Below, piece by piece: positions 25,402 to 30,207 of a stretch of DNA of 64,000 bases (position 1 is the first letter of the stretch; every line of letters begins with the position of its first letter). The position numbers and the translations under genes are program-made. The notes beneath the pieces were generated by a model. That model was not told the DNA's origin. It made no database searches and saw only the letters and a list, made by a program, of their open reading frames with translations. Source of the DNA: Ciborinia camelliae (lineage: Eukaryota; Ascomycota; Leotiomycetes; Helotiales; Sclerotiniaceae); the NCBI GenBank assembly GCA_025890175.1, contig JANPYM010000004.1:1061134-1125133 (forward strand), in the 5' to 3' direction.

Positions 25402-26487
25402 CTACAAGTCAGCTAAATACATCAAACCCGTCCCTTCCGCACAGCCAATATACTCTGCATCCAAATCTTTCGACTTCAAAACACACAACTCCACAAACAA
25501 AACCGCCTTCCCCTTTTCCAATTCACCCCCAGGACCATAAAGACTCATAACCGTCTTCCTCAACTCCACATGTCCCTTATGCGAGCGTCCGGCTTGCTCA
25601 AAGTGCGCCAGATCCAAGAAATAAGCAAGTTGATTCGCCTCCGCAATCGCATTAGTATCGAGCTCTAAATCAGCACTTGGATCGAATTTCTCATTTACGA
25701 TTTCTGGTGTGGGGTTCTCCTGCCCAATATGTGTGGTAAAGGCTACCACGCCGTTTTTGTTGCGTGCTGTTGCGAGATGAGATATCCAGGATTGGGCGTG
25801 TGGATTTATTTGCTTGAGCCAGGCTTCGGTTTCGGCTGGGGGGATATGTGGTTGTCTTTGGCCTTCGCGGACAAAAATTAGATTCTCGGGGGGATTTGAG
25901 ATTGTGACTCTCCCTAATTTTATTTTAGCACTACGAGTACTGGGTATATCGATGATTTTCCTGGTTTCGTTAGGTTTTGCTTTGGTGGGAGTGACATAAG
26001 GTGATGTAAAAGTATCCGAGGGATCAGTATGGGAATCTGGTGTCTCGGAGAGTCGATGACGGTATACGCCCCAGTATCCTTCATCGTCACTTTGTTTTAA
26101 TGGAAGGAGGGTCCCCATTGCAGATGCCACGGGTTGGCTAGAGGCGAACGTGAAGCGGGATTTGGGGACTGTCATTACTTCGCGCCAAACGCCTGCGTCG
26201 GCAGGGAGGGAGGCCCAAAATTCTTTCACTGGAGATGACCCTTTCCATGATTCATAGGAGGTGGATGACAACCAGTATGCGACGAAAGTTGTGGATTTGG
26301 GGCCCTGGCGTGGGAGTCCGTGACTTTCGTCTTGGAGATGATCAACGCGGTTGGCGGACGAGGAGAGAAGTTTATAGAGAGTGGATATAGAAGTGGCTTT
26401 CTCAGGGGTAAGTTCTTCGTGTTGCACGCCGAAGATACCATAGGTGAAGACGTAGTCTTTCCCGTCCATATCAACCAAGAAAACCAT
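25402..26487 (-). CDS. Haem-containing aldoxime dehydratase (phenylacetaldoxime dehydratase family)
   Basis: Family enzymes dehydrate aldoximes (R-CH=N-OH) to nitriles using a haem b that binds the substrate nitrogen. One exon, 361 residues. TYGIFGVQHEEL at the N-terminus matches the first conserved strand. Then come YWGVYRHRL, AHFEQAGRSHKGHVELRK (residues ~294-311, holding the histidines expected around the haem), MSLYGPGG, and a C-terminus of VELCVLKSKDLDAEYIGC followed by EGTGLM, all typical of the family. It begins ~30-40 residues short of many relatives; a small upstream exon might be missing, but I could not identify one. It lies 2.6 kb from a nitrilase transcribed in the opposite direction, with a broken Zn2Cys6 regulator between, which suggests an aldoxime-to-acid route. 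Substrate (indole-, phenyl- or alkyl-aldoxime) cannot be read from sequence. Confidence 0.88.
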   Translation of the reverse strand: MVFLVDMDGKDYVFTYGIFGVQHEELTPEKATSISTLYKLLSSSANRVDHLQDESHGLPRQGPKSTTFVAYWLSSTSYESWKGSSPVKEFWASLPADAGVWREVMTVPKSRFTFASSQPVASAMGTLLPLKQSDDEGYWGVYRHRLSETPDSHTDPSDTFTSPYVTPTKAKPNETRKIIDIPSTRSAKIKLGRVTISNPPENLIFVREGQRQPHIPPAETEAWLKQINPHAQSWISHLATARNKNGVVAFTTHIGQENPTPEIVNEKFDPSADLELDTNAIAEANQLAYFLDLAHFEQAGRSHKGHVELRKTVMSLYGPGGELEKGKAVLFVELCVLKSKDLDAEYIGCAEGTGLMYLADL

Positions 26488-27280
26488 GATAGGCGATGGT
26501 TATAATGTTGATGGTAGTAGATAGTGGGAATTTCACTTTTGTCTCTGAATATGCGTAGCAGGTCCTAGCTTTTGAACATGGAAAAATAGTCCTAATATGA
26601 AAGTAGTATCAATGGAGGGGTTCGAATACCTTTATAGGTATTATCGCACAATGGTTTGTGGATTCTCTAATGTCCGCATGGCATGACAGTAAGATTGATC
26701 TCATTTTCATGTTGCTGATGTCATACCAGCATGATATGAATGAGCCATAGCCTGCCTAGTAACCCTGGTGGTGTTATTATACGTGCAGTAAGACTGCGTG
26801 CGGGCTCTTTAATAATGGGATCTAAGTTCAGCAATAGGCTAATGAGATTGTAAGAGAAGAAGAGTTGATTCATGAAGCCACTTGACTCAAAGGATGTTCT
26901 CGTTGTCGCTATTATTTCTTTGTTCATATACAAATAGGTATACTTATTGTACCTAAGGTAGGTATTCATATTTGGTAGCGGTAGTAGGAATTGCTATTTT
27001 CTCCACACATTACCACGTTTTAGGTTAAGGTTACTGTAGCTGAAAGCTCGGACCACACCTATTTCAATATAATGGAATGCTCATGCTCAGTAATGCCAAG
27101 AGGTAATTCATCAATGATTTTAGGTATAAGGGCAGGGCAGAGTTGATGGAGCTTGAGCTTATTAATTAGTCGCGGAAACATTTCCACTACTGCAGATTTC
27201 TTCACTCGTCAACACTGAATAGTCGATGCCTCCTGGCAGGGCAGTCATATCATGCCATGCATAGCCTTTCATACTAACCG
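26488..27280. other. Intergenic region upstream of the aldoxime dehydratase
   Basis: Promoter side of the minus-strand dehydratase. No gene recognised; an ACCT-type motif occurs near 26950. Confidence 0.4.
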
Positions 27281-27287
27281 CGATTAG

Positions 27288-28309: not shown

Positions 28310-29100
28310 ATGTAGTGGCTCCGACCAACAAGTGAAGCAGATCAAGATCAGAATCAATCCACATTCCCAAGGCAAGAATGGACGAATGTGTCTACTAATA
28401 TCGGTACAATCCTACCCAATCTTGATATTGGGGAATTAGCAAATGGGCACACGTACACTAGTTTTAACAATGACAGCGGGCCATATGGGATCCAAGTATA
28501 TTTGAGAACGCACTAGAGCATGTTAATCCCTCAGAACATATTTCATATCAGTCAAGTCTTTAGTGGCTTTTCGACGAAAGCATTGCCGGTTTGTAGTGCA
28601 GAAAAGTACTTTAGGAGAGACCAGCAGTAGAATATGAAATTCCTACTTGGTAATTTGTCTGACAATGCGTTATTCACCATAATCTTCACCATAATCTAGA
28701 CACCTAGGCTTATGTCAAGTCACACGAGCAGTCACACGAGCAGATGAATATTCAGCGGAATAAGCACCGCTATACATCAAGCCACCATCTTATCAGTCTT
28801 ATCAATTGGCGGGTATCTTATCCGCATCCCTGATAATAGCTCCCTTCTTGATTGTATGCGGCGAAATGGAAAGCTATGACCGGGGAAGTTGAACTTATCT
28901 AGCTAACCTAGGTCTTGGAACACAAGATTGAATTATCTGGCAGTACTTATTACTATCTAGTCACGATGACGGAATTCTGAAATACTTTAAGATCCGTCCT
29001 TTGAATACCGGTACATAGGTAAGGACAACAACTCGTAAGATCACATTATACAACCAACCTCTTTAACCATCATTCATCTCGAGATCATATTAGTGAAAAT
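28310..29100. other. Intergenic region upstream of the nitrilase
   Basis: About 0.8 kb between the pseudogene and the nitrilase start; it should include the nitrilase promoter. A short direct duplication, CACACGAGCAGT twice, lies at ~28722-28742. No gene seen. Confidence 0.4.
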
Positions 29101-30207
29101 ATGACCAGCTCAACGTCCTCAAAATATCGCGTTGCTGTTACTCAGCACGAGCCAGAATGGTTTGACCTACAGAAATCGGTGGAAAAAACATGCCGTATTA
29201 TCACAGAGGCTGCTGAGAATGGTGCCCAACTCGTTACATTTGCGGAAGCATTTATTCCTGGCTATCCAGCGTGGATATGGTGAGAACCCCCGAACTTCAA
29301 AATCACATTTGTGAAGCTAATTGGATTGTAGGACTCGTCCAGTCGATCCAGTCCTCTCTACCATTTACATCAAAAATTCCCTAGTCATCGATTCTGATGA
29401 GATGAGGACCATTCAAAATTGTGCCGCCAAGCATGGAATTGTCGTCTCTCTCGGATTCTCCGAAAACGACCATAACTCGTTATATATTGCGCAAGCTATC
29501 ATTGACGGAGATGGGACGATAGTCATGAAGAGAAGAAAGCTTAAGGCTACACATATGGAGCGTACCATATTTGGAGATGCTTCCGGGGATAGTCTTATGA
29601 ATGTTGCGTCGACTCGTGTTGGAAAGGTTGGAACCTTGGCTTGTTGGGAACATTGCCAGCCGCTGCTAAAATACCATACTTTACATCAACGAGAACAAAT
29701 CCATTGCTCAGCGTGGCCGCCAATTATCAATCATACTGGTGGGCCTGAGCTATGGTCCATGTCCAGAGAAGGTAAGGAAGTATTCTTTTAATACGTTCAG
29801 ACAAAGTGTAGCTAACTTGCACACATTGTTCAGGATGTCAAAGTCTTTCCCAAGTATATGCGATAGAGTCCCAGACATTTGTTCTGCACGCCACGACGGT
29901 CATCACAGAAAAGGGAGTCGGCGCAAACTCTACAGAAAGAGGGATATTAATGTCAGCACCAGGTGGTGGGGCGTCGGTTATAATCGGGCCTGATGGTCGG
30001 GTCATGTCGAAACCTCTTGATTCTACAACTGAGGGGATTATCTATGGAGATATTGATCTAGATCAAGCCATATTCGCACGCAGTTTCTTGGATATCTGTG
30101 GACACTACAGCAGGCCAGATCTTTTGTGGCTTGGCTGTGATACCCGTGGACGCAAACTAAGAGTTGACGAGAATTTGGAAACGAAAAACGCATGTTTGAC
30201 GGAGTAG
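29101..30207 (+). CDS. Nitrilase (carbon-nitrogen hydrolase family)
   Basis: Hydrolyses nitriles to carboxylic acids and ammonia through a cysteine nucleophile. Exons 29101-29279, 29332-29771 and 29834-30207 (GTGAGA and GTAAGG donors, CTAAT and CTAAC branch points) give 330 residues, the usual size. The Glu-Lys-Cys triad is complete: E49 in VTFAEAFIPGYP, K129 in RRKLKATHMER, and C164 in GTLACWEHCQPL, the CWEH motif typical of true nitrilases rather than of amidases or cyanide hydratases alone. HCSAWPPI and the late GASVIIGPDGRV are also family features. It sits close to an aldoxime dehydratase, whose nitrile product is the natural substrate of such an enzyme. A cyanide-hydratase-like specificity cannot be excluded by sequence alone. 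Confidence 0.93.

Follow-up and report, generated by a model that had tools for sequence, protein, structure and literature searches.

In the window (the whole 64,000-nucleotide stretch of Ciborinia camelliae DNA analysed in this study), a dehydratase gene and a nitrilase gene are divergently oriented with their start codons 2.6 kb apart, and the remnant of a plus-strand regulator lies between them (Table 1). The open frames, Pfam matches and catalytic residues agree with the original prediction, which placed a haem aldoxime dehydratase on the minus strand and a complete Glu-Lys-Cys nitrilase on the plus strand around a broken regulator. The closest named relatives of the window proteins share 81–92% identity with them and all belong to Sclerotiniaceae.

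Table 1. Features of the dehydratase-nitrilase locus, with positions in the window
Feature	Position	Strand	Evidence
REV-type haem dehydratase of the aldoxime-dehydratase family, 361 aa in a single exon; one open frame from ATG (26487) to stop (25402)	25402..26487	-	PF13816, 108 homologs, AF2 model
Val332 codon (OxdA distal His320 position)	25492..25494	-	Val 95, Ala 5, gap 8, His 0 (n = 108)
His306 codon (OxdA proximal haem ligand His299 position)	25570..25572	-	His 105, gap 3 (n = 108); alignment
Glu208 codon (OxdA Ser219 position)	25864..25866	-	Glu 102, Asp 3, Thr 1, gap 2, Ser 0 (n = 108)
Arg143 codon (OxdA Arg178 position)	26059..26061	-	Arg in 108/108 rows; profile alignment to three solved Oxds
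Decayed Zn2Cys6 / Fungal_trans regulator, split over three frames with internal stops and lacking its middle part, which would fall between 28291 and 28325	27258..28593	+	tblastn of three relatives
Regulator piece	27258..27668 (from 27162 with one relative)	+	tblastn, three relatives
Regulator piece	27647..28291 (to 28390 with another relative)	+	tblastn, three relatives
Regulator piece	28325..28480	+	tblastn, two relatives
Regulator piece	28483..28593	+	tblastn
Nitrilase exon 1, with Glu49	29101..29279	+	CN_hydrolase match, residue alignment
Nitrilase exon 2, with Lys129, Glu136 and Cys164	29332..29771	+	CN_hydrolase match, residue alignment
Nitrilase exon 3 and stop	29834..30207	+	CN_hydrolase match

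The dehydratase is a member of the aldoxime-dehydratase family. It matches PF13816 over model positions 2–310 of 310 (E = 2.1e-76; 257.7 bits against a cut-off of 25), and a search of the 46.2 Mb assembly returned this gene as the single PF13816 match in the genome. The 108 homologs recovered are of the same size as the window protein. Its AF2 model reached a pLDDT of 90.5, and the strong fold matches of the model were solved Oxds only. The NCBIfam equivalog of the canonical OxdA type (NF050090) was not reached, with 62.2 bits against a cut-off of 600.

The distal haem pocket departs from the canonical OxdA arrangement. Roles for Arg178, Ser219 and His320 of OxdA are reported in PMC5391958. 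When the OxdA numbers were placed on the aligned solved chains, the arginine was kept in the window protein, the serine corresponded to Glu208 and the distal histidine to Val332; the three solved bacterial Oxds, in contrast, carry Arg, Ser or Thr, and His. The canonical distal His or Ser was seen in none of the 108 homologs (8 gaps at the His and 2 at the Ser position), and an acid, Glu or Asp, occupies the Ser219 position in 105 of the 106 rows with a letter there. The window protein shares the R-E-V set, which together with the proximal histidine occurs in 93 of the 108 rows. The proximal ligand, which we take to be His299 in OxdA, is predicted from the alignment to be retained as His306. 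The label of haem aldoxime dehydratase given in the original prediction is sound for family, fold and proximal histidine, whereas on the distal side the arginine is kept and the other two canonical residues are replaced. A 2024 review describes the REV site as widespread in fungi and little studied, with information on REV enzymes lacking (PMC11568032); in our reading, its letters R-E-V denote these three positions. Of the fungal REV and REE types of Oxd homologs that the review takes from Kristkova et al. 2023 (PMC11568032), the window protein has the REV residues. The review's passage on these homologs defines them by residues, to which our analysis adds linkage with a nitrilase clade and a regulator.

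The nitrilase is complete, with 330 residues, two GT-AG introns and no internal stop, and each of its three exon frames matches CN_hydrolase (PF00795). The Glu-Lys-Cys catalytic set is intact (Glu49, Lys129 and Cys164, plus Glu136). Solved nitrilases match the protein down to 2.3e-72, the closest chains being named nitrilases, followed by NitA and cyanide hydratase. TIGR04048 was the best NCBIfam model, with 203.9 bits against a cut-off of 502.6. CN_hydrolase is not confined to this gene, as 16 frames at nine places in the genome match it.

The regulator between the two genes is decayed. The latter half of a Zn2Cys6 cluster, a linker and a portion of a Fungal_trans-like region can be read from it, in differing frames and with stops, and about 270 middle residues are missing, as measured on one relative (P0231). 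PF00172 and PF04082 do not occur in one open frame in the window, which holds pieces only. The identity of the regulator is taken from its relatives, because the window piece alone scores 15.3 bits against Fungal_trans, below the cut-off of 23. The pieces match 17 proteins, 16 at 54–67% identity and one from Venturia inaequalis at 39%, and all 13 named proteins among the 16 closer relatives are from Sclerotiniaceae. Seven of the 17 carry both PF00172 and PF04082, seven PF04082 only and three neither.

These relatives adjoin the enzyme pair in three of the four comparable Sclerotiniaceae. In S. borealis, regulator SBOR_3387 is next to dehydratase SBOR_3388, with the nitrilase on a contig of equal size; in Botryotinia calthae, regulator 0033g00070 is next to dehydratase 0033g00060; and in Monilinia fructigena one gene model fuses regulator and nitrilase. 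The exception is M. vaccinii-corymbosi, with regulator and dehydratase tags 404 apart. From these comparisons, we take the regulator to have been part of the locus in Sclerotiniaceae and to be broken in the genome studied here. No PF00172 match was present in the regulator models of S. borealis and B. calthae, which may therefore be damaged as well.

Linkage of the two enzyme genes extends well beyond Sclerotiniaceae. A lack of conserved adjacency in related species, which would have counted against the original prediction, was not observed. We matched the 108 dehydratase rows by hand to the best 120 of 3505 nitrilase matches, took as comparable the 14 species with both proteins listed from comparable assemblies, and judged a shared contig by locus tags and contig size. 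The pair lies on one contig in 13 of the 14, spanning four ascomycete classes, and is tightly linked in nine, among the matches listed. The class membership and class relationships of these species are taken as background. Locus tags are one apart in Fusarium solani, F. falciforme and Cladophialophora chaetospira, two apart in Botrytis porri, Cudoniella acicularis, Dothideomycetes sp. NU459 and Neodothiora populina, and three apart in Monilinia fructicola, and in Lachnellula suecica the pair sits within one 11.7 kb contig. For S. borealis, Bisporella, Tricladium and Halenospora, only equal contig size (198 kb to 2.9 Mb) indicates the linkage. In Rhinocladiella mackenziei, the one exception, the pair is not linked among the listed proteins; its dehydratase has a long stem (1.29) and may be a paralog. 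Overall, the comparison supports the dehydratase-nitrilase pair as a conserved locus.

The linked nitrilases form a single clade. In a 121-row tree built on the same best 120 of 3505 matches plus the window protein, the window nitrilase and all 13 linked rows fall in one 39-row clade (SH-aLRT 99). The clade also holds 25 rows with no linkage shown, among them that of R. mackenziei and an additional F. solani nitrilase (P0147) whose contig differs from that of the listed dehydratase. Among the matches listed, most of those outside the clade lacking testable linkage, no linked nitrilase was found outside it. The residues following the catalytic Glu also differ: the best 40 matches, 38 of them in the clade, have Ala (85%) followed by Phe (88%), and the other 80 matches listed have Cys (89%) and Trp (99%).

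Across 14 pairs, dehydratase and nitrilase tree distances correlate with r = 0.88 (0 of 5000 permutations as high), which shared species history alone could explain. Fusarium and Neocosmospora are Sordariomycetes, and Chaetothyriales are Eurotiomycetes. More informative than the correlation is that in careful trees, thinly sampled at 36 of 121 nitrilase and 34 of 108 dehydratase rows, the Fusarium and Neocosmospora rows group with Chaetothyriales in both genes, with support of 100/98 (nitrilase) and 95/99 (dehydratase), two Fusarium dehydratase rows being long-branched. For groups named after quick trees, a clade of Leotiomycetes and Fusarium was rejected (p-AU 0.023 for nitrilase, 0.0035 for dehydratase), as was one of Sclerotiniaceae and Fusarium (0.0355 and 0.0057), and Leotiomycetes alone was not rejected (0.088 and 0.126). 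The values for Dothideomycetes with Venturia were 0.064 and 0.038, so these genes do not recover every class. The Fusarium-Chaetothyriales grouping in both trees fits a transfer of the pair as a unit, and an ancient duplication is another possible origin.

OxdSs, an aldoxime dehydratase of S. sclerotiorum, is presumably SS1G_01653. OxdSs is XP_001597459.1, an indolyl-3-acetaldoxime dehydratase (PMC11568032), and SS1G_01614 is XP_001597420 (PMC4703900), a numbering step that leads to SS1G_01653. The numbering is only locally even, because SS1G_04339 and XP_001594532 in the same paper give a different step (PMC4703900). On this one numbering pair, OxdSs and the window dehydratase are probably orthologs, despite listed lengths of 347 against 361 residues, and its neighbor SS1G_01652 is probably the ortholog of the window nitrilase. 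The aldoxime dehydratase activity in Sclerotinia that the original prediction mentioned would then probably be that of this ortholog. SS1G_01652 is called a nitrilase-cyanide hydratase in PMC5372324, which reports a 3.4-fold rise in its expression at 24 h and a 2.3-fold rise at 48 h of Brassica infection, and it is placed in cyanide hydratase rows in PMC7065775, with log2 values of −3.22, −0.84, −3.23 and −1.03 (p = 0.021, 0.402, 0.053 and 0.286). Since these expression reports conflict, no infection role can be claimed.

The best reading of the sequence comparisons is that the locus would be an aldoxime-nitrile-acid module. Modules of this general kind are known, but in this one the dehydratase is non-canonical and the local regulator has decayed. 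We give a probability of about 0.75 to a two-enzyme catabolic module that would convert oxime via nitrile to acid and once had its own Zn2Cys6 regulator. The haem enzyme would bind the aldoxime nitrogen on ferrous haem, with His306 as proximal ligand, and remove water to yield the nitrile. Glu208 with Arg143 probably handles protons, replacing the usual His320, Ser219 and Arg178. The adjoining nitrilase would then hydrolyze the nitrile, giving the acid (or amide) and ammonia. If OxdSs is the ortholog, the haem enzyme would accept indole-3-acetaldoxime. The likely use would be detoxification of plant-derived aldoximes and nitriles or nitrogen scavenging from them.

A more tentative proposal, to which we assign slightly less than even odds, is that these enzymes represent a second chemical solution to haem aldoxime dehydration. 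The acid-base group would have been relocated from distal His320 to an acidic residue at the Ser219 position, where it would pair with the arginine that is kept. This solution would have been kept in four fungal classes with its own nitrilase clade, marked by Ala-Phe after the catalytic Glu where others mostly have Cys-Trp; the pair would have moved between classes as a unit, and the regulator would have been lost in at least this genome. The linked nitrilase clade, the likely tie to the purified OxdSs and the residue-level prediction make REV chemistry directly testable.

It is unlikely that the haem protein has left aldoxime chemistry for a peroxidase or peroxygenase type of reaction or another N-OH dehydration, its product still feeding the nitrilase. 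Such a shift would suit the lack of the distal His and Ser across the homologs, the report that in OxdA aldoxime dehydratase activity is absent from H320A and redox activities are raised in H320D (PMC5391958), and the scant knowledge of REV enzymes conveyed in PMC11568032. However, OxdSs, probably the ortholog, is reported to dehydrate indoleacetaldoxime (PMC11568032). Co-location with one nitrilase clade also points to a nitrile product, and the acid and the arginine (108 of 108) are both conserved.

Slightly less probable again is that the module mainly makes indole-3-acetic acid, with indoleacetaldoxime of host or fungal origin as its source. Cladophialophora, Neodothiora, Tricladium and others, which are not known as auxin-making pathogens, also carry the locus, and no oxime-making enzyme was present among the 20 window frames, a subset of all frames, that were scanned with Pfam. 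An auxin role would agree with the presence of indole-3-acetaldoxime among the few of 14 tested aldoximes that OxdSs is reported to accept (PMC11568032) and with the IAOx-IAN route proposed for S. sclerotiorum (PMC7961953), but the reported specific activity of OxdSs is only 0.014 U/mg (PMC8955678). Given that fungi with very different lifestyles carry the locus, we favor oxime breakdown, for detoxification or nitrogen, over an auxin role. Bearers of the locus include black yeasts and other fungi that are not known as crucifer pathogens, which argues against the specific tie to glucosinolates, camalexin or auxin suggested at the outset. Oxime breakdown may instead be a widespread ascomycete trait and not a speciality of crucifer pathogens. 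It is very improbable that the two enzymes are unrelated neighbors whose linkage is without functional meaning: slow rearrangement alone can keep adjacent genes together, and among listed proteins the R. mackenziei pair is unlinked, but linkage recurs in four classes, always with the same nitrilase clade, and both gene trees share the Fusarium-Chaetothyriales grouping.

The expectation of a notable two-gene fungal locus with its own regulator was right about a conserved locus, but an Oxd gene beside a nitrilase gene was already known in fungi. In Ochroconis mirabilis (UM578_4049/4050) and Fusarium graminearum, oxd adjoins a nitrilase gene as it does here (PMC4738786); the passage on the O. mirabilis pair reports it without a regulatory protein, unlike the window locus. 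A search of open-licence PMC papers found no prior account of a conserved dehydratase-regulator-nitrilase locus. What this study adds is that the linkage involves a single nitrilase clade in four classes, that a regulator accompanies the pair and has decayed here, that both genes show a common cross-class grouping, and that the REV class is likely tied to OxdSs. In bacterial aldoxime-nitrile operons, the dehydratase is likewise encoded together with a nitrilase or nitrile hydratase (PMC8955678), whereas the fungal pair is divergent, its nitrilase has introns and its regulator is of the Zn2Cys6 type. The bacterial Oxds share the haem-enzyme fold and the proximal histidine with the window dehydratase.

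Decay of the regulatory gene between the dehydratase and nitrilase genes may be under way in a number of Sclerotiniaceae; alternatively, the gene models of the regulator's relatives are wrong. Both readings follow from two observations on the 17 proteins found with the regulator pieces: Pfam matched PF04082 (Fungal_trans) without PF00172 in 7 of them, and the beginnings of two (P0238 and P0244) appear, by eye, to be read in a different frame. The public gene model DID88_002794 of Monilinia fructigena (P0230, 823 aa) joins the regulator to exons of the nitrilase, and this fusion is probably an annotation artefact.

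A small gene lies downstream of the nitrilase gene, with an open frame for an MFS transporter farther downstream (see the table). The start of the small gene resembles a secretion signal and a single intron interrupts it, both judged by eye; neither of its two frames had a match above the cut-off in the Pfam scan. Elsewhere in the window, the frame matching animal haem peroxidases is perhaps one exon of a larger oxygenase gene.

Coordinates and Pfam matches of additional features in the window
Feature	Position	Strand	Pfam match (E-value)
Animal-haem-peroxidase-matching frame	14939-15658	+	PF03098 (2e-11)
Small gene	31246-31897	+	
MFS transporter open frame	32982-34742	+	PF07690 (5.1e-45)

The GC content at 52001-54000 was 0.383, the lowest value when the window was read in 2 kb steps, and this drop coincided with a GC skew of +0.23.
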